Of a DNA stretch of 64,000 nucleotides, positions 14,957 through 58,965 are shown one piece after another. Numbering within the stretch: the first letter of the stretch is position 1; every line of letters begins with the position of its first letter. A model generated the notes under the pieces. The model was not told the DNA's origin, did not search any database, and saw nothing but the letters and a program-made list of their open reading frames with translations. This stretch comes from Bremerella volcania. GTDB lineage: Bacteria > Planctomycetota > Planctomycetia > Pirellulales > Pirellulaceae. A program made the position numbers and the translations under genes. Where the stretch lies: NCBI RefSeq assembly GCF_007748115.1, contig NZ_CP036289.1, positions 5,580,001-5,644,000 of the forward strand, given 5' to 3'.

Positions 14957-15035
14957 TCCCGTCCACCTTTGGCTCTTGGGTTTTCAATTGGCGGCGTTTT
15001 TCCTTTCGAGTTAAACCGAAAGGAGTCGCGTGGCT

Positions 15036-16750: not shown

Positions 16751-16834
16751 GGCAATATCTCACCCATTGATTAGGTTCAGAAAGTCGACCAGAGGAATGC
16801 CCGCTGGCCGACTCACTTCTAAAAACACCTAACA

Positions 16835-25864: not shown

Positions 25865-26181
25865 GGTCCAACCCCCTATTTGCATCCATGCATCCAACCC
25901 TCTGTCTGGTCAGAGTGGGGGTGAATCTTAACGGCGTAATGCGACAGGCAAAAGATCGATTTTCTTGACGGACCCCATGCTTGACGCTGTCGATAAACAT
26001 GGCGACAAATTGCACTAAAACATTGTCAGATGGTCACTTATGACCTAGAAATGAGTTAAATGGACTGACATTACGGCTTGCGAAACCAGCAAAAACCATT
26101 TCCTAGCCCAAATCGTCTATGTCTGAGATAACGAACCTAGTCGCGACACTCTTCTATCCTTTAGCCCCGGGGACTTCTCTG
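25865..26181. other. 317-bp divergent intergenic region, DUF900 hydrolase / macroglobulin gene
   Basis: No gene was seen. An inverted repeat GGTCA (26032-26036) with TGACC (26041-26045), spaced by CTTA, could be an operator, because it lies about 140 bp upstream of the macroglobulin start. TTGACG occurs twice (25968 and 25981 areas), but neither copy has a good -10 box at the usual distance. Confidence 0.4.
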
Positions 26182-29100: not shown

Positions 29101-32100
29101 GACGATCAACCAGGACAGGCTCAGGAAGTGCTTGTGTCAAAACATGAACTCAAATCAAACGACAATGGGGAAGCTCGACAGACGCTGACGCTTGAAAAAG
29201 GGGGACACTACGTCCTGCGTTTCACCGGAGTCGATCGCTTCAAGCATGACATCTCGGCCCAGGCCGCAGTGAACATCTCGGACGAAAACGATCGGATTCG
29301 CCTACACATTTTAGCGGATCGACATCTGCTGAAGTCAGGCGAGAAAGCCTCGATCGATGTTCACTGGCGTGGCGAACCGACGATGGCTTTGGTAACGTTC
29401 GAGGGTTCGAAGATCCTCGATTATCGTCTGGTGGAATTGAAGTCAGGAAAGAATGCCCTGAAGTTCGACGTCGATGCGTTTTTAGCCCCGAACTTCCAGC
29501 TTGCGATCGCGGCGATGACTGATGCCAAGAAAAACGCCGAGATCGACAATGGGGAGGCTGCTATTCGATTTCACACGGCCGAAAGCGTCTTTCAGGTCGA
29601 ACGTGATCTGAGAATCGAGTTGAAGTTGCCCAAGAATGCTCGGCCTGGTGATACGGTGAAAGCAGAGTTCAAGACAACTGACGCACTAAGGAATCCCCTT
29701 CCAGCCGAACTGAGTCTGGCCTTGGTGGAAAAGAGCCTTCTCGATCAGTTCCCGCCCAACTGGGCCAAGCCGAGCAACTTCTGGCAAGGCAATCCACGGG
29801 TCTTCGCTATGCGAGCAACTTCCAGCATCGACTTCCACTACCAGCCAACTACCGAAGCGATCGACGAGCAACTCTTGGCGGAAGAAGAGCGTTTAGAAGC
29901 GGCCGAGGAAATCCGGCTCGAATTGAGTGACTTCAGTCGTGCGGGCATGCGAGACTTCGACGGAGCGGCAATCGATCCGTTTGGCGCCCCCGCCGATGCG
30001 GAAGCGTATGACTACGGCATGAACGCTAACGCTTCAGGCAACGGTGCCTACGGAGGCGGGTTTGGAGGTGGCGGAGGTTTCGGTGGCTCGATGGGACGCC
30101 CCGGATATGCACAGCCAAACGCCCCAGCTGCGGCACAGCCCCAAGCCGTACCAGAACTCAAGCAGATGCGTCAAATAGCCGATCGTCTTGCTATTGAAAA
30201 AGAATCCGGCAAGAAGATGGTCGCTGGACAACAAGCAATGTATGACTTCCAGCTAGGCGAACAACAGCTGGGCTGGGGAGCGAAAGACGTGCGTTGGGAC
30301 GACATGTCAACATTCCGCGAGAGAAGTTGGTATTTCGACTCCCAAGGAAATGCCAATCTCGGCGTGCAAGTTCTCGATGCTCGAGGCCGTTACTCAAACC
30401 GAGCCATTCAGTTGTCCGAGGGAAAGATTGCAAACAACGAATTGTTCGCCATGGTCGACGAAGCCGCAAAGAACGGCGACCTTCTGCTGCCTGGCTTACC
30501 TCCTCAGGAAACCGCTTTCTGGGCCCCCAGCCTTGTCACTGACGAAAAAGGTCTAGCCAGTGTCGATATTACGCTGCCACCCAATTCAACAACTTGGAAA
30601 CTGCTAACCAAGGGCATCACTGTCGAAACGCTGGCTGGCGAGGCGGAAACGGAGCTAACGGTCGCTAAGCCGCTATTTGCAGATTTAACGCTACCGATGG
30701 CACTGCAAAGTGGCGACACGATCCAGATTCCTGTTCGAGTCTTTAAGACCAACGGCAAGCCAGCCAAGGTCGAACTGGCCCTTGAGATCAGCATCGGCGA
30801 GAAGAAAGTCACCCAAAAGAAAACCATCGAATTCAAAGACGAAACGGAAAAGGATCTGCTCATTCCTCTCGAGCTTGATCCGGCGGCCGTGAAGAGCGCC
30901 GATCCGGCTGTAGCCGAATTCCGCTTGGAAGTTCGCTCTGGCGATATCGCTGACGTCCAGCGTCAATCTGTGCCGATCCGCCTCCGCAGCTATCGCCTTG
31001 TCCGCTCGGACGCAGGCCAAGCTTCCAGTGATATGACTGCCGTAGTCAAATACCCTGAAGGAATGCCTTGGGAGAACCCCACGCTCAGCATCGTGATCGG
31101 TCCCAATGTGCGTTCCGATCTGATCAGCGTGCTGGATCCTCCAGTGGTACCCATCTATCGATGTGGCACCATCGCAGCGACGCCAATCGACACGCTGACG
31201 AGCGATATTCTCGCCGGCATCGCGTTGGAGAGCTTACTGAAGCAAAGCCCCGATCAAGGCGGCCCTTTTCTCGATACGGTGAAATCCAAGGTTGATGCCG
31301 CGATCGCTTCCCTGATCGTCATGCAAAACGACAATGGCGGATTCAGCTGGAGTGGCTCGCAAACGGGAACCAACCGCTATTCGACGGCGCGAGCCCTCTG
31401 GGCATTGGCTGCGGCTCGCAAGGCAGGGCATCGCATTGATGCAGATCTCGTTCAGAAGACGGTTCATGCCGTTAAGAATGAAATTCCCAAGCTGCCTGTC
31501 GGTGATTACGACAGCAAGGCAACCCTGTTGCACGCTTTGACCATTTCAGGTGCTGGCGACTTCTCGTTAGCTAATCAGTTGCATCGTAATCGCCAGTCTT
31601 TAACCGCTTCAGGCTGTGCCTATCTGGCACTGACCTTTGCCGAAATGAATCGCAGCGATACGGCCCGCGAATTGACGGATCTGGTCAAGAGCAAAATCGG
31701 TCAACAGGGCATCTCTGGCTGGAATAGTTCGGATGTCGAGTCCAAAGCCTTGTACGCGATGTGCGTCCTGGCAACCCAACCTAAGTCGCCCGAAATGACG
31801 AAAGTAGCCAAAGACGTCCTTCAAGCTCGCAGCGGACATCGTTGGCACCCTGACAAAGCGACTGGACCAGCCATGATGGCGATTTGCGGCTGGACTTCTG
31901 GCCAGGCATTGGCAGCCGACGAATATCAACTAACCATCCTCGTGAATGACAAAAAGGTTAAGACTCTAAAGATAGACGCGCAGAGCCTAACGCAATCGAT
32001 TGATATTCCCGCCGATTTCCTGAAGCGAGGCAAGCAGGAAACCGTTCGCTTTCAGTTGGCCGGACGCGGCGAGTTCACCTATCGCTGCGAACTCTCAGCG

Positions 32101-34404
32101 GACGTTCCGCTGGACAAGCTTCAGTCGAATACTTCACGATGGTACGTACGTCGCTACTACGATCCAGCACCGCTGCGGTTCGATGGCGAAGAAATTCCTC
32201 GCGGCTTCGGAGTGGTCAGTGGTAGTTACCAGTCATTCCGCAACGAACTTACCGAGTTGCCCTCCGGTGAACGAGGTCAGGTACGCGTCAACATCTATCG
32301 CAGTAACGTGCGAAACGATGAAGAAGAACAACAGATGGAATACCTGGTCGTCACCGAGCCCATTCCATCCGGGGCGACGGTGGACCCAAGTTCGATTAGC
32401 GGAAGCTTTGAACGCTACGAAATCCACCCAGGCTACATCTTGTTTTACCTGGGGCCAAGTCGTGGCTCTCGCTACTTGAACTACGAACTTGTTGGCATTC
32501 AGCCAGGCAGCTATTACACCGGTCCCACGTTGGCCCAGGATGTGTATCGTCCTGAAAGCCTCGCCGTAGGTGAGTCGAAGTCGCTCAAGGTTCTCGCCAG
32601 CGGAGAAGAGAGTGGAGACAAGTACCGTCTTACGCCCCAGGAACTCTACGAACTCGGTCGTCGCAAGTTTGACAAGGGGGATTTCGCCGGGGCCGAAGCT
32701 CACTTGACGGACCTGTTCAGCAACTGGTCGCTCGACAACAATCCGTTCCGCGAAACCACCAAGATGCTGTTCGACATTCACCTTCAAGCCAACCACTCGG
32801 CTGAAGCGGTCAAGTTCTTTGAACTGCTGATCGAAAAGTTCCCGGACGAACAGATTCCTTTCGCCAAGTTGTTGAAAGTAGGTGATGCCTACAACGAACT
32901 TGGCGAATATGAACGAAGCTATCTCGTTTTCCGAGCCACGGTTGAAGCCAACTTCATGGTCGAAAGCCAAGTGGCGGGTTTCTTAGTCGATCAAGGAGAA
33001 GTCATTCGCAGTATCAAGGTAATGGAAGACCTACTGAAAAACTCGCCCCAGGAATCGTATACCGCAATTGCCGAGTATGCCTTGGCAACCGATGTGTACG
33101 GCAATGCAGCCCAGGCTGCTGCCTCGCGAGAAGGAAAGAACCTGAAACTGACCAAGGTTCACTTCCTAAAGAAATCGCTGCAAATGCTAGAGCAGTTCCT
33201 GACGACCCATCCCGAAGATCCTTCGGCGGATGAGGCAGCGTTTGCTTTGGCGTCGGGCATGACCGAACTCGAACAATATCAGCAGACAATCAAGCTGTGC
33301 GAGAAGTATACGGATCGTTATCCCAAGAGCGATCACTTGAGCAGCTACTGGTATCTTACCGCGTTCTGTCACTTCGCGTTAAGCGAACCAAAGCAGGCCC
33401 TGGAAATGTCCGACAAAGTCGCCCAGAGCGTGCCTGCTTCGCAGCGAAACTCGAACAGCGTTGCCGCTCAGAATCGCTGGCGAGCCATTTACATCATGGG
33501 GCAGATTCACCATTCTCTGAACCAAGCCGCCAAGGCAATTGCCAACTACACGGAAGTGAAAGATCGATTCGTGGATGCGGCTCAAGCTATTAACTACTTC
33601 ACGCGGCAAGCGATTTCCTTAGAGGAGGTCACCAGTTTCCTACCAAATGAAAAGGTTCATTTGACCCTCGACTACCGCAACGTGAAGGATTGCGAGATCA
33701 AGGTCTATCGTATCGACCTCATGAAGTTTGGCTTGCTACAGCGCAACTTGCAGAAGATTACCACGATTAATCTTGCGGGAATTCAGCCGCTGCATGAAGC
33801 GACGATCGAGCTTGGCGACGGCAAGGACTACCAGGACAAAGAAAAAGACGTTCCACTTCCGCTGAAGGAAGAAGGGGCATATCTGATCGTTGCTCGGGCA
33901 GACAACCTACACGCCAGCGGCCTGGTCCTGATCAGCCCTTTGAAACTCGACGTCAACGAAGACAGCGTTTCGGGACGCGTTCGCGTCACCGTCAAGAATA
34001 AGATGAAAGACACCTACGTCGACGACGTACATGTCAAAGTCATTGGCACGAACAATTCCGATTTCGTTTCCGGCGATACGGACCTTCGTGGGATCTTCAT
34101 CGGGGATGGCATTCGGGGACGCAGCACCGTGATTGCCCAAGCCGAGAAGGGAGAGTACGCGTTCTTCCGGGGTACAACCGACCTGGCTCTTACGCAAGAG
34201 GAGTTAAATCGCCGCAATACCTGGCAATCTGAATCTCAGGTACAGCAAGGCCAGCAAGCACCGACGAACCAAATGGATGCCAAACAGGAACTGTTGGAGG
34301 GGATTCAATCGGGTAACAGCGTGATTCAACAAGAACAACGCCGGAACCTTGATCGATTTTACCGAAACGACGTTAAGGGAGGCATCAAGAACTTCAAGTT
34401 CTAA
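26182..34404 (+). CDS. giant secreted TPR / alpha-2-macroglobulin-like protein
   Basis: 2740 residues from ATG 26182, which starts a clean signal peptide (MLPLIRPLVWSFVFALCL, then ATAAEG). Domain order by residue: N-terminal TPR/outer-membrane-assembly-type repeats (about 40-520); a macroglobulin-like module (527-703); an MG2 domain beginning RPGQLVHVRG (about 740-820); further MG domains to about 1270; a Gly-rich linker (about 1295-1310); an A2M domain with ETAFWAPSL and PPNSTTWKLLTKG (1380-1520); an alpha/alpha toroid of the thioester-domain type (about 1665-1925); a receptor-like domain (2050-2130); a second TPR array (2150-2475); and a second macroglobulin-like module (2487-2657). Where a CxEQ thioester is expected, the sequence reads YRCGTIAAT. 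Bacterial macroglobulins trap or block proteases in the envelope; that role is inferred. Confidence 0.85.
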   Translation: MLPLIRPLVWSFVFALCLPIIATAAEGDIEDVTSVDETLYVLAPTAIRDAMQDRNYDEAIQLIDADLAKDGGDKEQLLYLKGRALHFAGKYEDAVRVFEEQLKRFPDSKWSRKAKFAIGLAHARRGDYRSAEVAYREQARYLLSLDRKEEVAEIYLNLASVAYECGEETKDNNEYSKALQFYQKALEVGPKPKTRDKINLQIARSQKHLGQQGAAINVYANLVSNSTDRTIKLIARYELGELYLQAGQHAAARKTWEDLLALHDGEDSPLLPKAAFRLAETYNFPSPPSEQDLELGVAALEEYLAKYPEHESVPEAHFQLARAFSSRGRGDDAVQALQSFLKIEQYASTDAYADARFLLGSIYAQQHKFDEAIAAWSQYLSKHPTHSKWSEAQQRIINAQYQKAEFAYAEENYDEARKLWREFLVKYPVDSRSQQIQFRIGESFHRQENWAEAISAWQQLASKFPGSQIAAQAKYNIALTTEQKLEKLAEAIELYKELAGTPFASQAQQRITLLTGEQLELATLRKFRSNQKPSIQLKTRNLEKVTVQIYPIDLETYFRKMQTTGGIESLDIALIDPAESFTFEVPKYEKYRLDTHNVEIPIPLPGEQEGNKVAEAGVVAVTVTGATKEATTVVLQSDLDMIVKSSRDEVFVYAQNMKTGKPWGDVRLLMSNGSEVFAEAKTGEDGVYRASRDELHGSSDIRVLGVVDGHSAANIVNLGGLDVARGLERRGYLYTDRPAYRPGQLVHVRGIIRHVKDDRYTVPAGETYQLEVLDPRGRSLLYREVKLSDFGSAGGHLLLPAQSPVGSYQVVMKSIKNKEEAYYGVFQVAEFQLPRIFLEIETAEDVYYRGEVVKGKITAKYYHGDPVINRNLQYFLDGKQIDAQTNNKGQVEFELPTRDLRDSKVVQIQARMPSENASTAKSVFISAVGFTINASIVRDTYLSGESFDVTASVKDLEGEPLETDLTLSVMRLADDQPGQAQEVLVSKHELKSNDNGEARQTLTLEKGGHYVLRFTGVDRFKHDISAQAAVNISDENDRIRLHILADRHLLKSGEKASIDVHWRGEPTMALVTFEGSKILDYRLVELKSGKNALKFDVDAFLAPNFQLAIAAMTDAKKNAEIDNGEAAIRFHTAESVFQVERDLRIELKLPKNARPGDTVKAEFKTTDALRNPLPAELSLALVEKSLLDQFPPNWAKPSNFWQGNPRVFAMRATSSIDFHYQPTTEAIDEQLLAEEERLEAAEEIRLELSDFSRAGMRDFDGAAIDPFGAPADAEAYDYGMNANASGNGAYGGGFGGGGGFGGSMGRPGYAQPNAPAAAQPQAVPELKQMRQIADRLAIEKESGKKMVAGQQAMYDFQLGEQQLGWGAKDVRWDDMSTFRERSWYFDSQGNANLGVQVLDARGRYSNRAIQLSEGKIANNELFAMVDEAAKNGDLLLPGLPPQETAFWAPSLVTDEKGLASVDITLPPNSTTWKLLTKGITVETLAGEAETELTVAKPLFADLTLPMALQSGDTIQIPVRVFKTNGKPAKVELALEISIGEKKVTQKKTIEFKDETEKDLLIPLELDPAAVKSADPAVAEFRLEVRSGDIADVQRQSVPIRLRSYRLVRSDAGQASSDMTAVVKYPEGMPWENPTLSIVIGPNVRSDLISVLDPPVVPIYRCGTIAATPIDTLTSDILAGIALESLLKQSPDQGGPFLDTVKSKVDAAIASLIVMQNDNGGFSWSGSQTGTNRYSTARALWALAAARKAGHRIDADLVQKTVHAVKNEIPKLPVGDYDSKATLLHALTISGAGDFSLANQLHRNRQSLTASGCAYLALTFAEMNRSDTARELTDLVKSKIGQQGISGWNSSDVESKALYAMCVLATQPKSPEMTKVAKDVLQARSGHRWHPDKATGPAMMAICGWTSGQALAADEYQLTILVNDKKVKTLKIDAQSLTQSIDIPADFLKRGKQETVRFQLAGRGEFTYRCELSADVPLDKLQSNTSRWYVRRYYDPAPLRFDGEEIPRGFGVVSGSYQSFRNELTELPSGERGQVRVNIYRSNVRNDEEEQQMEYLVVTEPIPSGATVDPSSISGSFERYEIHPGYILFYLGPSRGSRYLNYELVGIQPGSYYTGPTLAQDVYRPESLAVGESKSLKVLASGEESGDKYRLTPQELYELGRRKFDKGDFAGAEAHLTDLFSNWSLDNNPFRETTKMLFDIHLQANHSAEAVKFFELLIEKFPDEQIPFAKLLKVGDAYNELGEYERSYLVFRATVEANFMVESQVAGFLVDQGEVIRSIKVMEDLLKNSPQESYTAIAEYALATDVYGNAAQAAASREGKNLKLTKVHFLKKSLQMLEQFLTTHPEDPSADEAAFALASGMTELEQYQQTIKLCEKYTDRYPKSDHLSSYWYLTAFCHFALSEPKQALEMSDKVAQSVPASQRNSNSVAAQNRWRAIYIMGQIHHSLNQAAKAIANYTEVKDRFVDAAQAINYFTRQAISLEEVTSFLPNEKVHLTLDYRNVKDCEIKVYRIDLMKFGLLQRNLQKITTINLAGIQPLHEATIELGDGKDYQDKEKDVPLPLKEEGAYLIVARADNLHASGLVLISPLKLDVNEDSVSGRVRVTVKNKMKDTYVDDVHVKVIGTNNSDFVSGDTDLRGIFIGDGIRGRSTVIAQAEKGEYAFFRGTTDLALTQEELNRRNTWQSESQVQQGQQAPTNQMDAKQELLEGIQSGNSVIQQEQRRNLDRFYRNDVKGGIKNFKF

Positions 34405-46343: not shown

Positions 46344-49300
46344 ATGACACGTATTATTCCGGTACCCACAGGTCGAACGAGCGACTACCTTCTGTCGCAG
46401 CGTCTCACCAATCAAATGTCGGCTGACCAGCTCGACTTGCTTCGTCTGCAAACGCAATTGGGTACCGGACGTCGCGTGCTTTCCCTCAGTGATGACGCGC
46501 CGGCCGCCATCCGCGGCGTCACGCTCCAGTCGTTGTTGGAGCAAAAGACACAAATCCAAACCAATTTGATTACCAGCCAGTCTTATCTCTCGGCGACGGA
46601 CGTAGCACTCGCCAACGTCCAGACGACACTGAACGATGTGAAGGGGTTGGCCGTTCGGCTCGCTGACACAACCTTTTCCGATACCGAGTTGGCCGCAGCC
46701 GGAGAACAAGTTGAACGTGCGATTCAACAACTGATGGACTTGGCCAACCAACAGTTTCGCGGACGCCACCTCTTCGCTGGATCCAATACCACGACCAAGC
46801 CGTTTCAGACGCTCGAAAATGGTTTGATCCAGTACCTGGGCAATACTACAGGACTGCAAAGTTTCGCCGACATCGACTTGCTTTTCGATACGACGGTAAA
46901 TGGGCACGAAGCGTTTGGCGCGATCAGTCAGCAGGTCAAGGGAATTGGGGACCTGAATCCTATCGTAACTGGGTCTACGAAGCTCTCTGATCTCCGCGCG
47001 GGTAAGGGGATTCAGAAGGGGAGTTTCCAGATTTCGGATGGCCTCTCGCCGCCAGTTACCATCGATATCAGCAAGGCGAACACACTCAATGACGTGGTTC
47101 GCTTGATTGAATCCAATCCCCCTGCCGGCCGTAAAGTAACGGCTCGTATCAGTGATACGGGTCTGATTGTCGACATCGACGATGCCGGAGGAGGCAACCT
47201 GACTATCCGTGAACTGGGCGGCAGTCGCGTCGCGGCACAACTGGGGATTCTTAAGACCGAAGGTAATCTTACCAACCCGATCGTAGGGGCAGACCTGAAT
47301 CCAAAGGTTACGCTGACTACCAAGATTTCTAACCTTCTGGGCACCAAGTCGAGTGCGATCATACAATACCCAGGTTCTAACAACGACATCCTCATCGAGG
47401 CCAATGCCAACGGTGAGTCACTCAACGGAACCAAGATTCAACTGGTCGATGACAACCTGCTGAAAGCAGGTACCGGGATTACCCGTGGCAACGAAATCGT
47501 CACGAAAGGTTCTGATCTATTGCGACCTCAGGCGACGTTGAACCTGGACGGAGCCGACAATGATTTGCTGCTCACGGCAAATTCGACCGACGGCAGTCTT
47601 GATGGCGTACAAATCATTATCGACGCTTCCAACGACATCGGTGATTCAGCCGTTATTGGTCCCACAACGCTGGTAGATGGCGTCCCTACGATCACCGTCC
47701 TGGTCGATGACAGCGACGAGACAAGTCTCCAGACATTAATGAACGCGTTTGCCACCGACGGACGATTCGCGGTCGGAAAGGCCAACACAGGCGAAGGATT
47801 CAACCCAGCAGCTGCCGTAACCGCCGTTAACGATGGTCTATCGTCAACGGCCACCGTAACTACGCAAGCCGTCAAGGCCAGGGCTTCGCTTCCTCTTGTG
47901 GGTGGCGGAAACGATCTGACACTGATCGCGAATCAAGCGGGTGAACTATTTAACAATGTTGAAATCGTAATCGACGCATCCAACAACCTGGGGGACGCCG
48001 CCACCGCGAGCTACTCGGACAACGGAACAACGCGTCGACTGACGATTCAGATCGACGACGACAACGAAACTACCGTTCAATCGATTATCAACGCCATTGC
48101 GGCAGAAGGAACGTTTTCCGTTACCAGCGACAATGGTAACGGCGAATCGTTCAATCTGGCCGCATCGGTGAATGTGGCAAGCGCCGGCACGATCGGAAAT
48201 ACTGGCAACACAGGGGGTGACACTGACGCGTATTACGTTCAGGTCGCCTCAGGCACAACGACTGCAGACGACCTAATCCGGGCGTTGAACAACAGTGCTA
48301 CGTTCTCGGCAGACTTTACCGCCAGCATTGACCCCAAAGATACAACTGCTGAATTCCTGACCGCCAGCGGCACGGTCAGTACTTCGGTCATTGGTGAAAC
48401 ATCAGGTGGCTCGGGAACCACGTTCGACAGTGAGTCTGGTATCCAAATCCAAAATGGATCGGTCATCACGACACTCGATTTCAGCGAAGTAGAAACCGTA
48501 GAAGATCTGCTAAACGTCTTCAATGGCAGCGGTGCAGGCCTTGTCGCCGACATTAACGCCAATGGGAACGGAATCAATGTCCGCTCAAGTGTAAGCGGAG
48601 GAGATTTCTCGATTGGCGAAAATGGTGGGCAAACCGCAACGCAGTTAGGCCTACGCAGTTTCACGACAGAAACGCGACTCTCCGAGTTGAATTTCGGTCG
48701 GGGAGTCACCGGCACCGACGGAACGGACTTAACGATTACCCGCAACGATGGCGTCGAATTGGAGCTCGATCTTTCGACCGCTAAAACCATCGGTGACGTG
48801 CTGAATTTGATCAACAATCATCCGAACAATCTGGATGGCAACAACGCAGTGGTCGCACGCCTCTCGGAGTTCGGCAATGGTATCGAATTGATCGACGACA
48901 ACCCACCTGGGTTTGGTCGTCTCATGGTATCGCAAGGTGTTCTTAGCCACGCCGGCGTTGATCTCGGCTTGATCCCGCCTGGGCAAACCGAGGCCACCGT
49001 ATCGGATTCACCGGACGCTTCGCCTGCCACGGCAATCGTTCAATTTGCAGAGCCAGACAACGTCAACAATGCCATTAAACTTACGGCCCAGAACCCGGGC
49101 ATCAGCTACAACGATATTCAAATCGAGTTCGTCAACAATGCCGCCAGTGGCAACCAGGCCCTGGTCTCGTTTGACCAGGCGACGCAAAAACTGACGATCG
49201 ACGTCGATCCGGCGCTGACTTCCGCGAATACTGTCATTGCCGCAATCCAAGCCGAGGGAACGTTTTCCGCGGAACTTTACGCGGCGGAAGATGCCACGAA

Positions 49301-50081
49301 TGCAGGTACGGGGCTGATCACACAAACTGGCGTCCTTGCAACGACCAATGGTGGAACACCGGTAGCAGATTCGGCGGCAGCGACAGCCGATATCTCGTTT
49401 GCTTCGCCGAATCACCTCAATACTGCGTTCTCCCTGGTCGCAAAATACCCGGGTACACGCATGAACGACGTACAGATCGTCTTCGAAGACTCTCTGTCTG
49501 GCGGTGTCCCCAGCGCAGTTTTCAATTCAGCAACTAAGACGCTGACCATTCAAATTGAAGCGGGCGTGACGACGACTAACCAAGTCATTGCGGCGATTGA
49601 CCAGCAGGGGGATTTCGATGCCAAGCTGAGCTTCGCCAATGATCCGACCAATTCTGGCAGTGGGATTATCAACGCAACAGGAACGGTCGGAACCACAGCC
49701 GGCGGCAGCCCGGAAGTGCTTCAAGGTCGCAATGTCAACCCACAAGAAACCAAAGGTATTTTCAACTCACTCCTGCGGCTGAAAGACGCGATTGCTTCCA
49801 AGAATGTCCAAGAGGTCTCTCGGATCGCAGGGCTGCTGGAAGAAGATATTGAGCGCCTGAGCTTTACGCGTGGGGCACTGGGTGCCCGAGACCAGCATGT
49901 GGATGTGCTGAAAGCTCGTGGTGAGGACGAGATCCTGGAATTGAAGACGAATCTATCGTTGGAAATTGACGTCGACATTGTGCAGGCGATTTCGGAAATG
50001 ACCGCCAAACAGGCGTCTTTTCAAGCCTCGTTACAGATGACAGGCCAACTCTACCAATTAACCTTGTTGGACTTTATCTAG
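46344..50081 (+). CDS. flgL: giant flagellar hook-associated protein 3 FlgL
   Basis: 1245 residues, whereas FlgL is usually 300-450. The N-terminal flagellin-like helices (about 1-190) contain TGRRVLSLSDDAPAAIRG and DLANQQFRGRHLFAGS. The C-terminal helices (about 1126-1245) contain LGARDQHVDVLKAR and SEMTAKQASFQASLQ, both as in FlgL. The 900-residue centre holds flagellin_IN-type motifs (GIQKGSFQISDG at about 222; also about 775-870) and four full plus one half copy of a roughly 105-residue beta-rich repeat. It forms the second junction ring below the filament. The repeats should decorate its outside. The gene is 69 bp after flgK. Confidence 0.88.
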   Translation: MTRIIPVPTGRTSDYLLSQRLTNQMSADQLDLLRLQTQLGTGRRVLSLSDDAPAAIRGVTLQSLLEQKTQIQTNLITSQSYLSATDVALANVQTTLNDVKGLAVRLADTTFSDTELAAAGEQVERAIQQLMDLANQQFRGRHLFAGSNTTTKPFQTLENGLIQYLGNTTGLQSFADIDLLFDTTVNGHEAFGAISQQVKGIGDLNPIVTGSTKLSDLRAGKGIQKGSFQISDGLSPPVTIDISKANTLNDVVRLIESNPPAGRKVTARISDTGLIVDIDDAGGGNLTIRELGGSRVAAQLGILKTEGNLTNPIVGADLNPKVTLTTKISNLLGTKSSAIIQYPGSNNDILIEANANGESLNGTKIQLVDDNLLKAGTGITRGNEIVTKGSDLLRPQATLNLDGADNDLLLTANSTDGSLDGVQIIIDASNDIGDSAVIGPTTLVDGVPTITVLVDDSDETSLQTLMNAFATDGRFAVGKANTGEGFNPAAAVTAVNDGLSSTATVTTQAVKARASLPLVGGGNDLTLIANQAGELFNNVEIVIDASNNLGDAATASYSDNGTTRRLTIQIDDDNETTVQSIINAIAAEGTFSVTSDNGNGESFNLAASVNVASAGTIGNTGNTGGDTDAYYVQVASGTTTADDLIRALNNSATFSADFTASIDPKDTTAEFLTASGTVSTSVIGETSGGSGTTFDSESGIQIQNGSVITTLDFSEVETVEDLLNVFNGSGAGLVADINANGNGINVRSSVSGGDFSIGENGGQTATQLGLRSFTTETRLSELNFGRGVTGTDGTDLTITRNDGVELELDLSTAKTIGDVLNLINNHPNNLDGNNAVVARLSEFGNGIELIDDNPPGFGRLMVSQGVLSHAGVDLGLIPPGQTEATVSDSPDASPATAIVQFAEPDNVNNAIKLTAQNPGISYNDIQIEFVNNAASGNQALVSFDQATQKLTIDVDPALTSANTVIAAIQAEGTFSAELYAAEDATNAGTGLITQTGVLATTNGGTPVADSAAATADISFASPNHLNTAFSLVAKYPGTRMNDVQIVFEDSLSGGVPSAVFNSATKTLTIQIEAGVTTTNQVIAAIDQQGDFDAKLSFANDPTNSGSGIINATGTVGTTAGGSPEVLQGRNVNPQETKGIFNSLLRLKDAIASKNVQEVSRIAGLLEEDIERLSFTRGALGARDQHVDVLKARGEDEILELKTNLSLEIDVDIVQAISEMTAKQASFQASLQMTGQLYQLTLLDFI
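47349..49706 (+). repeat. shared beta-rich repeats in FlgL
   Basis: Protein-level repeats inside flgL. There is a half copy at 47349-47462 (NNDILIEANANGESLNGTKI) and fuller copies at 47529-47867, 47871-48203, 49020-49355 and 49377-49706. Each has a strand like ITLTAxxxGxxYNDVQIxF, then a strand KTLTIxI, then a helix TTxxQVIAAI, and an end such as GxGIIxxTGTVxTTxGG. The DNA of the copies has diverged, so they are old duplications. Confidence 0.8.
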
Positions 50082-50198
50082 TCCGACTTTGACGATTTTA
50101 TGGATTCCACCGGCCAATCGGTCGATAGAGAGAATAGGGCGTTATCTTTGCGTCCACTACTATTTCGCCGACAAGATTGCGTAAGGATGCCAGGGGCC

Positions 50199-50639
50199 AT
50201 GGAATTCAAAACCACTCGCTTCGGCCAGCTCGATATCCGCCAAGATGAAATCATCACCTTCCCAAACGGAATGATCGGGTTCGACAATCATACGAAGTGG
50301 GCCATTCTGGCGGATGAGTCGAACGAGTCCGTTGGCTGGCTGCAGTCGCTGGAAGACCCAGGGCTCGCTTTCGCGGTCGTTAGTCCACGGCGATTCATTC
50401 CGAGTTACAAAGTGCGAATCAGCCCAGAACAAGCCAGTTCGCTGCAAATCGGCGCCGGCATGGAGACCTTTGTACTGGTAGTCGTAAGTCGGGAAGACAG
50501 TTTGGTTACCGTCAATCTACGAGCCCCTCTGCTGGTAAATCTGTCGCTTCAGGTTGGCCGTCAGGTGATTACGACCGACGAACAACCCCTGCGGCATGTC
50601 ATTGCGACTGAAACAATCCCTCTGCGTCGCAGCGCTTGA
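50199..50639 (+). CDS. fliW: flagellar assembly factor FliW
   Basis: 146 residues from ATG 50199; the longer frame from 50100 adds 33 residues not found in FliW. The core is TRFGQLDIRQDEIITFPNG, with GMIGFDNHTKWAIL, then SLEDPGLAFAVVSPRRF, and the C-terminal VTVNLRAPLLVN with GRQVI. FliW binds CsrA and flagellin in turn: when flagellin is used up by export, FliW frees itself to inhibit CsrA, and flagellin mRNA is translated. The csrA gene lies 213 bp downstream and fliC after it, the classic arrangement. Confidence 0.93.
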   Translation: MEFKTTRFGQLDIRQDEIITFPNGMIGFDNHTKWAILADESNESVGWLQSLEDPGLAFAVVSPRRFIPSYKVRISPEQASSLQIGAGMETFVLVVVSREDSLVTVNLRAPLLVNLSLQVGRQVITTDEQPLRHVIATETIPLRRSA

Positions 50640-50852
50640 ACATCCGGACTTGCCGTCAGAACAGTATTCGCGGATTGAAAAGTGAATCCGCATCTCTAGG
50701 TGTCCGATACTCAACACGTCGAGTCATAGCAATGCACTGCTATCATTGCTGGCGAGCGACTGCATTATGGCAGTCATTCGGGGCTGGACGGAATCTTACA
50801 AGCACCAAATGCCCAATACCCTGATTGAAATAAAAGTAGGAAGGAGCCAGAG

Positions 50853-51077
50853 ATGCTGGTACTCTCGAGGCACCGTGACGAAAGCATCATGATCGGCGAC
50901 AACATTGTCATCACGATTGTGGATATTCGTGGGGACAAAGTTCGCCTGGGCATCGCTGCCCCTCAAGACATTCCTGTGCACCGCCAGGAAGTTTACGAGG
51001 CGATCAAGCGCGAAAACATGCAGGCCTCCGGCATGCAGCCAGAAGACACGGCCATGATGAAAAAGGGCCGCAAATAA
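50853..51077 (+). CDS. csrA: carbon storage regulator CsrA
   Basis: 74 residues. It is a small RNA-binding dimer. Key RNA-contact residues Leu4, Arg6 and Arg44 are all present (MLVLSRHRDESIMIGD at the start; VHRQEVYEAI). A tail of about 18 residues follows the core, ending in a Lys/Arg patch. The ribosome site AGGAAGGAG contains two GGA motifs, so autoregulation is possible. With FliW upstream and fliC downstream, its likely main target is the flagellin mRNA leader. Confidence 0.96.
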   Translation: MLVLSRHRDESIMIGDNIVITIVDIRGDKVRLGIAAPQDIPVHRQEVYEAIKRENMQASGMQPEDTAMMKKGRK

Positions 51078-51092
51078 TTGCGGCTGTGATAT

Positions 51093-51125
51093 GGAGGTCG
51101 TCTATCCATCAGCCAGGCGACCTCC
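51093..51125 (+). terminator. probable csrA terminator hairpin
   Basis: GGAGGTCG (51093-51100) pairs perfectly with CGACCTCC (51118-51125) around a 17-base loop, 15 bp after the csrA stop. The following sequence is pyrimidine-rich (TCATCCCTCTTCCTT) but not a pure T-run. Confidence 0.6.
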
Positions 51126-51773
51126 TCATCCCTCTTCCTTAGCGTCAATCCGCACAGTGAATCTCACTTTGCGCTGCATGAATTTACGGCAGTCCGCACA
51201 GCGGTACCTCGCCCAAATTCCCTCTCCCAGCGGATTTTTAGCGAAATATCTCCCACCGAGAACTGCATCCGGTACGTTAGGTCCTCCTATCGATCACAAA
51301 TACGTGATGCGTGCTATCACAGCGGGAAAACAGGGCATCTTGACACATATGAATATGCCTTTGCCAATCAATTCTCGCCTACAAACGAAAACCTTGGTGG
51401 TGCGGTCGTAACGTCTAGTCCGACGATGCGGAATGAACAAGGGAAACAACTTCCGTCAAGTCAGACGTCAACGAAAAAGAATGTCTTTATCTCAAGCTAG
51501 TGTCAAAGTGTGACGATCTTCCCATTTAGACGTTTCAGAATCCTCGCGGAAGCTGCGCCGACCACGTAGCTAGCTCGGACAAGAGGCGTTAAGCGGGGGC
51601 AGGCCCAAACTGGCTACGACGTTCGTAGAAAGAAACCGTGGCCAAAACTCGAGATTGACAATCGTTCGTTCCCAATATTTCGGGGCTGCGTTTTGCAGCC
51701 GCACCAGCTGAGTCACGACTCCCCGTCTCGGTTGGAACCAAACGTAGTCCTCAACTAGGAGGGGTGTCTCAAA
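51126..51773 (+). promoter_or_regulatory. structured fliC upstream region and leader
   Basis: 648 bp without a credible gene. A 106-codon frame (51091-51411) overlaps the csrA terminator and looks random. Close to fliC are three hairpins: CTACGA/TCGTAG (51614-51628), GGCTGC/GCAGCC (51684-51700) and TCCTC/GAGGG (51748-51763). The last includes the Shine-Dalgarno sequence AGGAGGGG (51757-51764), nine bases before the ATG, and has AGGA across the loop and stem, a CsrA-type motif. I could not place a convincing sigma-28 or sigma-54 promoter. Confidence 0.55.
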
Positions 51774-54700
51774 ATGACCCGAATCAATACTAACGTCAGC
51801 TCACTCATCGCTCAGAACACGTTATCGCGTTCGAACAACGACTTGCAAACCGCTCTGGGTCGTTTGAGCACCGGTCTCCGGATCAACCGAGGTAAAGACG
51901 ATCCAGCTGGTTTGATCGCCAGTGAAGGTCTTCGCAGCGATATCATCAGCGTGGAGAAGGCCATCACGAATAGTGAACGTGCCAACCAGCTGATCGCTAC
52001 CGCAGACAGCGCACTTGGTCAGGTGAGCCAGCTTCTCAACGACATCCGTGGCTTGACTTCGGAAGCAGCCAATACGGGTGCGTTGAGCGAAGAGCAGATC
52101 GCTGCTAACCAGTTGCAGATCGACTCGTCGCTGGAAGCCATCGACCGTATCGCACAAATCACTTCGTTCCAAGGCAAGCGTCTACTGGACGGTAACCTCG
52201 ACTTCATCACCAACGGTGTGGATACCAAGTCGATCGAAGGCCTCCGAGTCGACCAGGCCAACTTCGGTTCGTTTAGCGAAATCGGCGTCTCGGTCAACGT
52301 CGTTAAGCAAGCAACTCGTGGTCAGCTCAACTACAACTTCGGTGCCATCGCCGAAGATCTCGTGCTGCAAATCGGCGGCGGCAACGGTACCGAAGCATTC
52401 AACTTTGCTAAGGGTTCGACCATCGAAGAAGTTGCTTCAGCCGTCAACTTGGTCTCGGACGCTACCGGCGTGGAAGCCATCGTCGAAACGGCTGCCACCA
52501 AGGGCACCCTGGTTGCGTCGAGCTACGGCGAAAACAACGACGTCTTGATCACTGCTAACGAAGCCGGTTTCGATCCTGGTGACGTCCGCATTAAGTACAC
52601 CAAGGGCACCACGAGCACGACCAGCGCGACTTACACTGCTCCGGTTGGTGAAGATCCCGCTCAGATCGAAGTCTCACTCGGCGTTCGCGATTACGAAGCC
52701 GCTACGGTTACCGTGGACGATGCCGGTACGGACAACGACTTTACCATCACGGCCAACATCAAGGGCGCGGACTTCAATGGCGTTCAGGTTGTCTTCGCTA
52801 ATGACGGTGCCGCCGGTGCTGAAACCGTTGACTTCGATGCCGACGCCGGCACGCTAACGATCCACAAGGCTGCGACGTCGACTGCCGCACAGCTTGTTAC
52901 GGCAATTAACAATACCGCTGTCAACGATCAAGTCGCCGAGTTATTCACGGCAGCTCTGGTCGAAACGACCGGTGGTACGGGTGCTGGTGCAGTTGCCTCC
53001 GCAGGTGCTGCTGGCACGTTCGCCGGCGGTGTTGATGGCGGCGACGTAATCGCCACGGCCAACGACGTTGTCACGGCGATCAACGCCGCTACCGGCAACG
53101 ACAAAGTCACTGCTTCGCTTGAAGCAGGCAACAACGGCTACGGTATCGTCTCGGAGTTCACCGACGTTGCTTACAGCGGTGTTGCTGAACAGAACAACCG
53201 CCTGCAGTTCCTGGCTCCTGAGTCTAATCCGAACATTCGGTTTGTTTCAAACCCAGGCACGGAACTCAGCATCGACACGACGACCGATCCTCGTGTGGAA
53301 GGACTATCGTCCGCTACGCTGCAGAGCGATGATGCGAACGCAACGTTCACTGTCTCCGCAAAGCTGAAAGGCAGCGAGTACGACGACTATACGATTTCGT
53401 TTGTCGACGATACCGACCTGGCCGGTAATGGCGACGAATACGTTATTCTCGACAAAGAAAACAAGACGCTGAAAATCTATGTCAACGATGCTACGTCGAC
53501 GGCCCAAGATGCTGTTGACGCGATCAACAACGACACGTACGTCAGCGACTACTTCGGAGCCGACAACTTTGGTTCCAGTGACGGTTCCGGCGTCATCACC
53601 ATCGCCAATTACCCATCGTCGGTTGACACTGCGGGTGGCGTTGTTTCGGAAGGCACGCTGATCATCAACCTGGCTACCGACGAGAACGGCATTATCACCA
53701 CGACCGCGAACGACCTGATCGCGTTCTTTGATGATCCAAGCCAGTTCATCAGCGACGTCACCGAAGCATCGGACGCCGCCTCCTACCTGGCAGACCGTGG
53801 CATTAGCGTCACCAATTCCGGTGGCAGCGACGGCTCCGGTGTGTTGGCCGTCACCTCGGACGATATCACCTTTGCTACGAGCGGAACCGACCTTGAAGAC
53901 GCTCAGGCATCCGGTACGACGTTCGCAGTGAATGGCGTGAATGCCCAACTGACGCTCACCGCCATCAACAGCGGTGAAGACTATGACGATGTCACGATTC
54001 AGTTCGTTGCTGATGGATCGGTTACGGCCGGTACTGATGAACGTGCTGAATATGATGAGGCTTCCAAGACGCTGACCTTCTACATTCAAGAAGGTGTCAC
54101 GACTGCAGCCGATATCGAAGACATTTTCACCTCTAGCGATCCTAACTACGATGCTGATGTCGCTGCCTTGTTTACGGCCACCGCAGGTGGTACAGGTGCT
54201 GGCGTCGTCACGACCGACGATACAGGTACGCTGACCGGTGGTGTTGTCGATGGTGGCAGCGTCCAAGGTGCTGCATTGCAGGGCAACTCGGATCTGGAAA
54301 ACACCGGTTTGACTTTCCAGGCAACTCGATACGGTTCGGACAGCTTCGTGAGCGTGAAAGCTCTGAGCGGAACGTTCCACTTGACGAACGGTAGCGGTGT
54401 CGCTGCCGATCGTTCGGAAGGTACCGACGTCGACGTCCGCATCAATGGTATCCAAGCCGTGGGTGACGGTCTGAAGGCTTCGATCAATACCTCGTCGCTC
54501 GACTTGAGCTTCTCGTTGAGTGCGACCGTCAGCGACAGCTCGAAGCTAAGCTTCCAGATCTCGGGCGGTGGTGCCTTGTTCCAACTGGGTCCAGACGTGG
54601 TTAGCAATCAGCAAGCCCGCCTCGGTATTCAGAGCGTCAGCACCGCAACCCTGGGTGGTGTCAGCGGTCGCCTGTTCGAGCTGCGTTCCGGTGGTTCCAA

Positions 54701-54995
54701 GAGCCTGACCTCCGACGTCGGTGGTGCTGCCAAGATCGTTGACGAAACGATCACGGTCGTCACCCAGCTTCGAGGTCGCCTGGGTGCGTTCCAGAAAACG
54801 ACTCTGGAATCGAACATCTACACCTTGAATGACACGCTGGCCAACCTGACCGAAGCTGAAAGCTCGATTCGCGACGCGGACTTCGCCGCTGAATCGGCTA
54901 AGCTGACCCGGTCGCAGATTCTGGTCCAGTCGGGTACCTCGGTGTTGGGTATCGCCAACCAGAACCCACAAAACGTCCTGAGTCTGCTCCGTTAA
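51774..54995 (+). CDS. fliC: giant flagellin
   Basis: 1073 residues, about twice the usual flagellin. The N-terminal D0/D1 part is classic: TRINTNVSSLIAQNTLSRS, then RLSTGLRINRGKDDPAGLIA, to about residue 170. The C-terminal part has LESNIYTLNDTLANLTEAES and ends in GIANQNPQNVLSLLR. The centre (about 200-935) is beta-rich and acidic and contains three full copies and one half copy of the same repeat that occurs in FlgL and FliD. These would form extra outer domains of the filament. An AGGAGGGG ribosome site and a strong terminator frame the gene; it is a single transcript, probably under CsrA control. Confidence 0.93.
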   Translation: MTRINTNVSSLIAQNTLSRSNNDLQTALGRLSTGLRINRGKDDPAGLIASEGLRSDIISVEKAITNSERANQLIATADSALGQVSQLLNDIRGLTSEAANTGALSEEQIAANQLQIDSSLEAIDRIAQITSFQGKRLLDGNLDFITNGVDTKSIEGLRVDQANFGSFSEIGVSVNVVKQATRGQLNYNFGAIAEDLVLQIGGGNGTEAFNFAKGSTIEEVASAVNLVSDATGVEAIVETAATKGTLVASSYGENNDVLITANEAGFDPGDVRIKYTKGTTSTTSATYTAPVGEDPAQIEVSLGVRDYEAATVTVDDAGTDNDFTITANIKGADFNGVQVVFANDGAAGAETVDFDADAGTLTIHKAATSTAAQLVTAINNTAVNDQVAELFTAALVETTGGTGAGAVASAGAAGTFAGGVDGGDVIATANDVVTAINAATGNDKVTASLEAGNNGYGIVSEFTDVAYSGVAEQNNRLQFLAPESNPNIRFVSNPGTELSIDTTTDPRVEGLSSATLQSDDANATFTVSAKLKGSEYDDYTISFVDDTDLAGNGDEYVILDKENKTLKIYVNDATSTAQDAVDAINNDTYVSDYFGADNFGSSDGSGVITIANYPSSVDTAGGVVSEGTLIINLATDENGIITTTANDLIAFFDDPSQFISDVTEASDAASYLADRGISVTNSGGSDGSGVLAVTSDDITFATSGTDLEDAQASGTTFAVNGVNAQLTLTAINSGEDYDDVTIQFVADGSVTAGTDERAEYDEASKTLTFYIQEGVTTAADIEDIFTSSDPNYDADVAALFTATAGGTGAGVVTTDDTGTLTGGVVDGGSVQGAALQGNSDLENTGLTFQATRYGSDSFVSVKALSGTFHLTNGSGVAADRSEGTDVDVRINGIQAVGDGLKASINTSSLDLSFSLSATVSDSSKLSFQISGGGALFQLGPDVVSNQQARLGIQSVSTATLGGVSGRLFELRSGGSKSLTSDVGGAAKIVDETITVVTQLRGRLGAFQKTTLESNIYTLNDTLANLTEAESSIRDADFAAESAKLTRSQILVQSGTSVLGIANQNPQNVLSLLR
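52515..54245 (+). repeat. shared beta-rich repeats in flagellin
   Basis: A half copy at 52515-52598 (NNDVLITANEAGFDPGDVRI) and fuller copies at 52698-53033, 53316-53639 and 53916-54245. They share the strands FTITANIKGADFNGVQVVF / LTLTAINSGEDYDDVTIQF, a KTLTFYI-type strand, a helix after TTAAD, and a GTGAGVVTT-type tail. Confidence 0.82.
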
Positions 54996-55020
54996 GAAGC
55001 AATTCAGTTCCAATAAAAGG

Positions 55021-55051
55021 AAAACGCCCGACCTTGTGGTCGGGCGTTTTT
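55021..55051 (+). terminator. rho-independent terminator of fliC
   Basis: AAAACGCCCGACC (55021-55033) pairs perfectly with GGTCGGGCGTTTT (55038-55050) around a TTGT loop, with a T-run at the 3' side. It is 26 bp after the fliC stop and is among the strongest terminators in the window. Confidence 0.95.
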
Positions 55052-55197
55052 CATTGGTAGTCAGATCGATCAAAACTACCTAATCGGAAAATTCCTCCAG
55101 CCTATGGCCAAGGATGGTCGATAAGGGAGATAAGCGCGGGTTTGATTTCTGCGGAACTATTGCGTGAGCGAAAGCTCACCCATGCGACACGAAGATA

Positions 55198-58100
55198 ATG
55201 GCAGGCATTCAAGCCAATACAGGTCTCATCACTGGCATTCCGATCACGGAAACGGTCAAGCAGTTGATTGCGCTCGAAGCTCAGCCTCGCGATTTGCTGG
55301 TCAGCCGCACCGAGTCCATCAATAAAGAAGCGGCGGCCATTGCCGAGCTGACAGCCAGTGTCTTGAGCTTTCAGTTCACTGCGAAGAAATTCGAGAAAAG
55401 CACGCTCTTCAACACATCGAAAGCCACAAGTAGCAACACTTCGTTTCTGTCTGCCACAGTTACCGGAACACCCAAGACCGGCAACTACCAATTCACACCG
55501 ATCCGGACGGCCCAGTCGCAGCAGCTACTTAGTTCTGGCGTCGCCTCCCTTACGCAGCCACTGTCTGCAGGCAAGATCCAGATCAGTCACGGCCCCAAGC
55601 TCGATGACGGGATTTCCCTCGACCAACTTAACGGGGGACAAGGAGTTCAGCGAGGTAAGCTTCGCATCACTGACCGCAGCGGAAGTAGCGCCGCCGTCGA
55701 TTTAAGCTATGCCCAGACCATTGACGATGTGCTGGATGCGATCAACAACAATGATGACATTCAGGTTACGGCAACCGTCGATGGCGATCGTATCAAGCTA
55801 ACCGACAACTCGGGATCAACCAGCTCGAACCTCATTGTTCAGGCCGTCGGAAGTAGTAGCACAGCCGCTGACCTAGGTCTGGACGGCATCAACTCCGCGT
55901 CGAACACCGTCACGGGCGCCGATCTGCTGAGCCTGCATGCCAACACTCTGCTATCTTCGCTTAACGATGGAAACGGAATTAGCGTAAACCGTGGTGCGGC
56001 TGATCTGTCCGTTTCGTTGCGTGACGGTACCACGCTAGAGATCGATCTTGGCAAGTCGGCTGCCCCGGAGGACTTCGCCACGGCCACAACCAAGTCAGGG
56101 GATGCCCGGCTCAGCTTCACCTCAGTACAAAATGGCAGTGATTACGACGCCGTTCAAATCATCTTTCAAGATAATGGTTCGATTACCAAGGGGAACGAAA
56201 CGGTCGTTTTCGATAGCAACGCCAAGACGCTGACGTTCCAGATTGACGCAGGCAAAACCACAGCCGCAGATATCATCACGGCGCTCGAAAATGATGCGAC
56301 TGCCAGCCAATACTTCACGGCTGAAACCGTGAACAACGGCCTCGGAAACGGAATCATCGATCCCAACAAAGACTCCGTTGCCACTGCCGCCACAACCGGA
56401 ACAGCTGCCGCCACGACAACATCCGTCGACCCGAATGCCGCGATTACCCTGACCGCCAATGGTACCGGCGGGACTTACGATGATGTAACGATCGTTTTCG
56501 TCGATGATGCAGGCGTGACCGCCGGCTCAGAAACGATTACGTACGATGAATCCGATCCAGACAACAAGACGCTTACTATTCGGATCGATGCTGGAAACTC
56601 GACCGGCACGAACGTCATCGATGCCATCAACAACGATCCCACGGCAAGCGCGCTGTTCACGGCCTCCAATGGAACCGGCAGTGACGGTAGCGGCCTGGTC
56701 GATGTTACCGACACGGCCGTAACAGCCGGAGGTGTCCTGCTATCCTCGGCAACTACCCCAGACGACGCTGCCAATGGCCAAGTCAACTTCACTGCCAAGG
56801 TGAAGGGGGCCGACTACGATGGCTATCAAATCGCCTATGTCGCCGATGGCGCGGTAACGCAAGGCAATGAAGCCGTCGAATTTGACGCGGATGCAAAGAC
56901 CATCACCGTTCGCATCGCGCAAGGCGAAACGACGGCCGATGACGTTGTTACGGCACTCAACGGCAATACGGCCTTTGCCGCGACTTTCACCGCTTCCAAA
57001 CCCACCAGCGCTACGGGCGACCGGATTGTTGACGCTTCGATCGAAGCGACGACCGACAAAGGGGAAGCCAGCGATGCTTCCGAGCCACAGACTCTGGGCG
57101 AACTAATTGATACTATCAATGGAATCGATCCCACTAAACTGCGAGCGCAGATCAGTGATGACGGCGACAGCATCGAACTCATCGACCTGTCGACCGACAG
57201 CGGGGGGACATTCGCCGTCAGCAGTATCAACAACAGTTCGACTGCCGAGGATCTCGGGCTTACTGGCACGGCATCAGGCGGTACGCTTACCAGTCACAGG
57301 CTTCAATCAGGCCTGAAAACGACGCTACTAACCTCTCTCAATGGTGGCCAGGGATTGGGCACGCTCGGCACCATCGCACTGACCGATAGGTCGGGCAGCT
57401 CAGCCAATGTCGACTTGTCCTCAGCTGAGACGATTGAAGATGTAATCGAATTGATCAACGCATCTGGACTGGCCATTAACGCTAAGGTTAATGCGTCAGG
57501 CACAGGCATCTCGCTAACCGAAACAAGTGGCTCGTTCACCAGCAACTTCATTGTGGCGAACGCGGACGGAACCAACAGTGCGGAACTGCTCAACATCGAG
57601 CATGACTCGACCAGCTTGACCGTCAACTCAGGCAATCTTGGTCGCCAGTTCGTTAACGAGAATACCAGGCTTGATGACCTCAAAGGGGGTGCCGGTATCG
57701 AGCGAGGCAAGTTCCTAATCAAAAACAGTGAAGGAAATACGCGGCTATTCGATCTGACTGACGCCTCATTCGAAACGGTTGGCGACCTGATCGACACGAT
57801 CAACGCTCAGCTGACACTGAACGTAGAAGCCCGAATCAATGATCGTGGCGATGGCATCGTTCTGATCGACAAGTCGTCAGGCTCTGGCAAGCTTACCGTA
57901 ACCGAAGGCAGTTCGATCAATACGGCAGCCAGCCTTGGTCTTCTTGGCACTGGAGTAGAGAAAGAAGTCGACGGCGTCAACCGTACTGTGATTGAAGGCT
58001 CGGAAGTCACGACTATCGATATTGAAGCAGGGGAAACTCTGCAAGACGTCATCGACAAGATCAACGATGCAGATATCGGCCTATCGGCCAGTTCACTCAA

Positions 58101-58965
58101 TACGGGGTCCGGTACGAACCCTGTACGCTTGTCGCTGACCAGCACAATTTCTGGAAGCAAAGGAAGAGTCGTTATCGACTCTAGCCAATCGCAGTTTCGA
58201 TTTGATGAAATCGTTGAAGCCCAGGACGCTTTGTTGCTGTTTGGCTCTTCCAGCAATGCAGCCGCAGGCATCCTGACGTCGTCAAGCTCCAACAAATTCA
58301 ACGAAGTATTGGAAGGCGTATCGTTAACCGTCAATGCGGCGTCCGAATCTGCCATCAACGTGAATGTTCAGGTCTCAGACGAACCCCTGTTAAAGGCTGC
58401 GCAGGAGTTCGTCGATCAATACAACGCATTGCGTGACAAACTCGATTCACACACCTTCTTCAACGAATCGGACAACACGACGGGCATCCTCTTTGGGTCG
58501 AACGAGGCATTGCGCATTGACACCGAACTTGGCAACCTGATCACTTCACGTCTGGCTGGAAACGGCAAATTCCAGTCGCTCGAACAGCTTGGTTTCGAGT
58601 TCAATGATACCGGCAAGCTGAGCCTGAACTCGACCAAACTCAAAGCAGCGTTCGAGCAAGACTCGGAAGCCGTGGAAACTTTTTTCACACGAGAGACCAC
58701 AGGCTTCGCGCTCAAGGTCTTTAATCTGACCGAACAATTCGCCGGCAGAAACAATTCGCTGCTTGTCAGTAGAGCACAGACGCTTCAATCCCGCACTGAC
58801 CTCAATACAGATCGCATCAAGGCGATGACCGAGCGACTAGAACGCAAGTCCGAGAGCCTTCTCAAAGAGTTTTACAATCTGGAACTGACCATCGGAAAGT
58901 TGCAGAATAACCAAACGGCATTGAGCCAAATTCAGTATATCAAGCCAGATGGTACTACTGGGTAA
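55198..58965 (+). CDS. fliD: giant flagellar filament cap FliD
   Basis: 1255 residues, whereas FliD is usually 400-700. The N-terminal FliD motif is TGIPITETVKQLIALEAQP, and the C-terminal domain is seen in LLKAAQEFVDQYNALRDKL, ITSRLAGNGKFQSLEQLGF and TERLERKSESLLKEFYNLE. Between them are three flagellin_IN-type modules (about 143-230, 712-800, 828-915) and three copies of the repeat shared with FliC and FlgL (299-398, 410-512, 524-615). FliD caps the growing filament and folds flagellin into place. An ATG at 55198 begins the known N-terminal pattern. It follows the fliC terminator, so it needs its own promoter, which I could not identify. Confidence 0.92.
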   Translation: MAGIQANTGLITGIPITETVKQLIALEAQPRDLLVSRTESINKEAAAIAELTASVLSFQFTAKKFEKSTLFNTSKATSSNTSFLSATVTGTPKTGNYQFTPIRTAQSQQLLSSGVASLTQPLSAGKIQISHGPKLDDGISLDQLNGGQGVQRGKLRITDRSGSSAAVDLSYAQTIDDVLDAINNNDDIQVTATVDGDRIKLTDNSGSTSSNLIVQAVGSSSTAADLGLDGINSASNTVTGADLLSLHANTLLSSLNDGNGISVNRGAADLSVSLRDGTTLEIDLGKSAAPEDFATATTKSGDARLSFTSVQNGSDYDAVQIIFQDNGSITKGNETVVFDSNAKTLTFQIDAGKTTAADIITALENDATASQYFTAETVNNGLGNGIIDPNKDSVATAATTGTAAATTTSVDPNAAITLTANGTGGTYDDVTIVFVDDAGVTAGSETITYDESDPDNKTLTIRIDAGNSTGTNVIDAINNDPTASALFTASNGTGSDGSGLVDVTDTAVTAGGVLLSSATTPDDAANGQVNFTAKVKGADYDGYQIAYVADGAVTQGNEAVEFDADAKTITVRIAQGETTADDVVTALNGNTAFAATFTASKPTSATGDRIVDASIEATTDKGEASDASEPQTLGELIDTINGIDPTKLRAQISDDGDSIELIDLSTDSGGTFAVSSINNSSTAEDLGLTGTASGGTLTSHRLQSGLKTTLLTSLNGGQGLGTLGTIALTDRSGSSANVDLSSAETIEDVIELINASGLAINAKVNASGTGISLTETSGSFTSNFIVANADGTNSAELLNIEHDSTSLTVNSGNLGRQFVNENTRLDDLKGGAGIERGKFLIKNSEGNTRLFDLTDASFETVGDLIDTINAQLTLNVEARINDRGDGIVLIDKSSGSGKLTVTEGSSINTAASLGLLGTGVEKEVDGVNRTVIEGSEVTTIDIEAGETLQDVIDKINDADIGLSASSLNTGSGTNPVRLSLTSTISGSKGRVVIDSSQSQFRFDEIVEAQDALLLFGSSSNAAAGILTSSSSNKFNEVLEGVSLTVNAASESAINVNVQVSDEPLLKAAQEFVDQYNALRDKLDSHTFFNESDNTTGILFGSNEALRIDTELGNLITSRLAGNGKFQSLEQLGFEFNDTGKLSLNSTKLKAAFEQDSEAVETFFTRETTGFALKVFNLTEQFAGRNNSLLVSRAQTLQSRTDLNTDRIKAMTERLERKSESLLKEFYNLELTIGKLQNNQTALSQIQYIKPDGTTG
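56092..57042 (+). repeat. shared beta-rich repeats in FliD
   Basis: Three consecutive copies: 56092-56391, 56425-56733 and 56767-57042. Examples of the first strand pair are SFTSVQNGSDYDAVQIIF, LTANGTGGTYDDVTIVFV and FTAKVKGADYDGYQIAYV. Each then has a KTLTF/KTLTI/KTITV strand, a TTAADIITAL-type helix, and an F-T-A-(S/E) end. These are closest in pattern to the flagellin copies. Confidence 0.82.

Follow-up and report, generated by a model that had tools for sequence, protein, structure and literature searches.

Three axial proteins of the flagellum of the planctomycete Bremerella volcania, the hook-filament junction protein FlgL, the flagellin FliC, and the filament cap protein FliD, carry copies of one module of about 105 residues between their conserved ends. 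FlgL has four full copies, FliC three, and FliD three, with one further copy split in two in each of FlgL and FliC, and across species the copies group according to gene and position. All three genes are in a stretch of 64,000 nucleotides (hereafter, the window), which spans bases 5580001-5644000 of a 6.50 Mb genome assembled as a single contig. Distant homology of the module to domain II of contractile tail sheath proteins is probable, and its copies may build up outer layers on the junction and the filament, as well as on the cap in the genus and near relatives.

A Module Shared by FlgL, FliC, and FliD

The gene names and coordinates given to the three proteins in an earlier, sequence-only reading of the window are correct, and each protein has the end domains of its own family around a variable middle. 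A profile built from ten copies locates the full modules. In the list below, window positions are followed by bit scores with this profile and then with a profile from which the protein itself was left out.

46344..50081, + strand: FlgL, hook-filament junction protein, 1245 aa, four full modules and one split module; TIGR02550 174.6 bits (cut-off 127.2)
47529..47852, + strand: FlgL module 1, aa 396-503; 81.7, 6.6
47883..48200, + strand: FlgL module 2, aa 514-619; 85.6, 12.8
49026..49364, + strand: FlgL module 3, aa 895-1007; 113.6, 52.3; PF17481 19.3 bits in the genome scan (cut-off 31.4)
49380..49715, + strand: FlgL module 4, aa 1013-1124; 115.5, 50.4; PF17481 19.2 bits; phrog_279 tail sheath E 7.1e-5
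51774..54995, + strand: FliC, flagellin, 1073 aa, three full modules and one split module; PF00669/PF00700 end domains
52701..53039, + strand: FliC module 1, aa 310-422, between both halves of the split module; 91.9, 48.7
53313..53651, + strand: FliC module 2, aa 514-626; 113.3, 67.8
53916..54254, + strand: FliC module 3, aa 715-827; 97.5, 49.4
55198..58965, + strand: FliD, filament cap protein, 1255 aa, three tandem modules; PF07195 9.2e-35, PF02465 7.4e-14
56077..56406, + strand: FliD module 1, aa 294-403; 117.0, 67.4
56410..56739, + strand: FliD module 2, aa 405-514, the modelled copy; 112.6, 72.1; AlphaFold2 pLDDT 90.0, pTM 0.82
56749..57075, + strand: FliD module 3, aa 518-626; 113.4, 61.0

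The common repeat family proposed in the sequence-only reading is borne out by the leave-one-protein-out test, in which a profile trained on two proteins was scored on the third and on 200 shuffles of each. Apart from FlgL copies 1 and 2, all copies score between 48.7 and 72.1 bits, and the best shuffles reach 6.3 (FlgL), 9.1 (FliC), and 3.9 bits (FliD). FlgK scores -1.5 to -3.1 bits in this test, and with the full ten-copy profile FlgK, FlgF, and FlgG give no positive-scoring domain; the absence of the module from FlgK and the rod proteins, also proposed earlier, thus holds for FlgK and for the rod proteins scored, FlgF and FlgG. A profile search of the whole 6.5 Mb genome places all matches better than E 1 within FlgL, FliC, and FliD (next match, E 1.21). 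A Pfam scan of the whole proteins names no module, except for the sheath match in FlgL below its cut-off. In the modelled structures, which cover FliC and FliD, the order of strands and helices is alike in one FliD copy and three FliC copies, and to this extent the anticipated likeness of folds across proteins stands.

Split and Nested Copies

The sequence-only reading counted four and a half copies in FlgL and three and a half in FliC. The extra pieces exist, and are better read as the N and C halves of one split module, the former covering about positions 5-38 of the model and the latter about 53-102. Between them lie one, two, or three full copies; in the window, FlgL has two there and FliC has one. 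Conservation was scored over rows from the genus and near relatives, which are related to each other, with a threshold of 4 bits.

47364..47471, + strand: FlgL split module, N half, aa 341-376; 13.2 bits, model positions 5-38; in 13 of 13 FlgL rows
48237..48386, + strand: FlgL split module, C half, aa 632-681; 24.0 bits, model positions 53-102; in 13 of 13 FlgL rows
52524..52610, + strand: FliC split module, N half, aa 251-279; weak, 6.1 bits; at least 4 bits in 18 of 18 FliC rows
53052..53168, + strand: FliC split module, C half, aa 427-465; weak, 11.2 bits; in 16 of 18 FliC rows (absent in G011 and G394)

The half-whole-half order is kept in all of these rows that have both halves. FlgL halves score 9-27 bits and FliC halves 4-14, and a score of 9 bits is reached by 0 of 300 FlgL shuffles and 1 of 300 FliC shuffles. 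Because the FliC halves score so low and the rows are related, the FliC split module rests more on its constant place than on its score. Judged from sequence, each pair of halves looks like a single module interrupted by whole modules that were inserted into it, in FlgL as in FliC. Among flagellin open frames, the lengths of 1078, 1194, and 1299 aa are about one module apart; in the 1194 aa flagellin, the first copy stops near model position 77 and is followed by a whole copy and then by the matching C end, a second level of nesting.

Distribution among Relatives

Nine genomes of the genus have four full copies in FlgL and three in FliD, with three to five in FliC; in genus g13, the same counts were found in the three FlgL and four FliD recovered. 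Among 78 relative loci from public genomes, in which some genes are cut by contig ends, the module occurs in 14 of 26 FlgL, 24 of 35 FliC, and 5 of 68 FliD, and in none of 25 FlgK. Relatives found via FliD are mostly planctomycete records, including Lacipirellula, Adhaeretor, and Botrimarina, which places the host very probably in the Pirellulales. Counted per genome rather than per gene, the module is present in 154 of 296 genomes of the order and in 8 of 294 drawn over the phylum. Its joint presence in FlgL, FliC, and FliD is a pattern of the genus and near relatives. At the 18 relative loci with all three genes, FlgL and FliC copy numbers, compared by eye as a sign of co-packing, follow no clear rule.

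Giant open frames of relatives contain the module as well, with 16 stretches above 8 bits in L134 and single copies in L133, L135, and L139. The L134 frame (2127-20000; 5958 aa, partial, truncated at the edge of the fetched stretch) resembles secreted proteins of the subtilisin type, and its copies form one group (support 79) in a tree of 103 copies. Outside the order, genome G023 encodes a flagellin-like protein with diverged module copies (L224, 1-2781). Two adjoining flagellin genes in G186 (L136, 2067-5237 and 5622-8786) have matching module positions and look like a recent duplicate, and in one metagenome record (L079, 3013-5967) FlgL reads as two open frames.

Evolution of the Copies

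Exchange of domains between the three genes, as put forward in the sequence-only reading, fails as a recent event. A tree built on 96 copies (10 genomes) groups them by gene and, for the most part, by position, leaving some extra FliC copies unplaced. It needs only two gene-label changes, which rules out recent exchange. Since copies cluster by gene and position across species, exchange between the genes is old rather than ongoing.

FliD copies group with FliC and never with FlgL in all three trees. In the quick tree of 103 copies, 13 FliD copies join five copies of FliC module 3 (SH-aLRT 97). In the careful tree of 38 rows (excluding the long row L061_FliD_1), the split between FlgL and FliC plus FliD stands (98/95), with FliD placement unresolved among the FliC copies, and an AU test rejects neither FliC module 3 (p 0.414) nor FliC module 2 (p 0.348) as the partner of FliD. 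A single origin of the FliD modules from FliC module 3 was therefore not retained as a conclusion, the quick-tree grouping finding no backing in the 38-row tree and the AU test admitting either partner.

Proposed Architecture and Function

The explanation favored here, held with slightly more confidence than doubt, joins an inserted outer module, outer layers, stiffening, and kinship with sheath domain II. The module would be an autonomous outer domain of four or five strands, one or two helices, and then a strand, with copies inserted in tandem and inside one another. Each protein would run outward from the filament core through its modules and then back, so placing them as outer layers that thicken and probably stiffen the filament via contacts of neighboring subunits. 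Flagellin topology puts middle segments outside. The outer placement is derived from this topology and not from an image, and is supported but not proven; passages of PMC6248924 on flagellin topology and the surface region underlie it.

Packing and stiffening may be the function and are preferred here, with adhesion as the main rival. According to the latter, the modules would be adhesion or recognition domains, making the flagellum a sticky or shielded surface, with the same use in giant secreted proteins. The giant open frames of relatives speak for this reading, as does a suggestion in PMC9230969, in the part on extra sheath domains, that these serve adhesion. Within the genus, FliC modules are also less conserved than D0/D1 (in G001, copies 1 and 2 reach 58-65% where D0/D1 reaches 99-100%, partly due to an extra copy in that flagellin; elsewhere the modules reach 80-87%). 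On the other hand, no binding motif or ligand is known for the module, a profile search finds no giant module-bearing protein in the window's genome, and in FliD and FlgL the modules show no clear drop in conservation relative to the cores. Adhesion is held to be rather improbable.

Several findings weigh against the favored explanation. FlgL copies 1 and 2 are the weakest with FlgL left out, copy 1 lying barely above the shuffles. No sequence in 117 genomes exceeds the gathering cut-off of PF17481 (Phage_sheath_domII; 31.4 bits), the best relative reaching 22.3 bits. The rarity of the module in FliD means that an outer shell shared by all three proteins is not a rule; of the common sheath or mutual packing suggested in the sequence-only reading, one family in three proteins remains, without the generality.

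Relation to Flagellin_IN and Tail Sheath Proteins

The module resembles Flagellin_IN (PF07196), a known flagellar insert also found in the window's FliC and FliD, in its strand-helix-strand part, and could be merely an extended form of it. The 55-position PF07196 model matches 7 of 72 copies at E ≤0.1 (best 5.9e-4), and a profile comparison between the module and the IN-like units in FlgL and FliD gives 23.5, where the highest of 100 shuffles gives 12.0. However, this match spans only 41 columns and leaves the first half of the ~105-position module uncovered. The IN-like units adjoin the modules in FlgL and FliD as a separate, second repeat family, which has no match of its own to sheath domain II (10.7). 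An extended Flagellin_IN motif is held to be unlikely. An IN-like unit matching FliD aa 720-814 (E 4.7e-9) also occurs in a 1315 aa protein, by eye a fused SecD-SecF (L141, 256-4200; G000:C1:2229000-2235000), and this match recurs in seven other members of the genus.

Kinship with sheath domain II (PF17481; 3LML, 3HXL) is supported but not proven. Likeness extends to length, order of elements over the whole model, an end near GG, and position as an outer domain on a conserved polymer core built from both chain ends; an analogy between flagellin and sheath architecture is drawn in the relevant part of PMC9230969. Unlike the module, domain II is single in the 11 sheaths compared, and the flagellar module falls below the Pfam cut-off and belongs to no contractile system. 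The likeness might instead be convergent, reflecting a generic small beta-rich fold of low-complexity composition without common ancestry, an account given limited credence. Sequence and fold comparisons agree independently on the same domain, and shuffled, reversed, and other-sheath-stretch controls score far lower, both of which speak against convergence. No hit was obtained when FlgL copy 4 was compared by tblastn with 50,697 phage records, and scanning viral contigs revealed no relative by sequence. A BFVD structure search gave five matches at E ≤0.001; one is named fibronectin type III and the other four bear no functional name. In G325, a 1146 aa frame matches PF17481.

A bolder scenario, advanced only tentatively, is that the sheath and flagellar outer domains are homologous and that a planctomycete flagellum captured the module, which then multiplied through Russian-doll insertion and passed from flagellin to the cap, such that junction, filament, and cap share an outer shell.

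Genomic Context

The flagellar operon of the window has the order FlgF-like, FlgG, FlgA, FlgH-like, FlgI, FlgJ-like, FlgK, FlgL, FliW, FliC, FliD, and FliS, several of these names being model matches under the curated cut-off. Elsewhere in the window, a protein of 2761 aa encoded at 26119-34404 combines tetratricopeptide and alpha-2-macroglobulin domains.

Known Systems and Significance

A literature search, by listing of open-licence papers, found no paper on module sharing among FlgL, FliC, and FliD. The analysis goes beyond the sequence-only reading in three respects: copies that are split or nested, giant secreted proteins with the module, and the resemblance to tail sheaths. Outer domains of flagellins are commonly regarded as inserts specific to each gene and unrelated to one another. 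In the present case, a single module family occurs in the junction, the filament, and sometimes the cap, and its steps of growth by tandem and nested insertion are visible.

A further close known system, compared by description, is that of the giant flagellins with DE repeats in Oceanospirillales (PMC6248924), which likewise exceed 1000 aa (FliC has 1073), repeat domains in the surface region, and grow stepwise by duplication. In the parts of that paper concerned, DE regions are reported for flagellins only, whereas the module is also in FlgL and FliD, in tandem and split copies. The same paper asks, in its discussion of the repeats, whether they fold as whole or split domains; the module offers a concrete case for the question, raised there, of how an out-and-back chain can hold duplicated domains. 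If the sheath kinship is true, two unrelated tubular machines would share the same outer domain.
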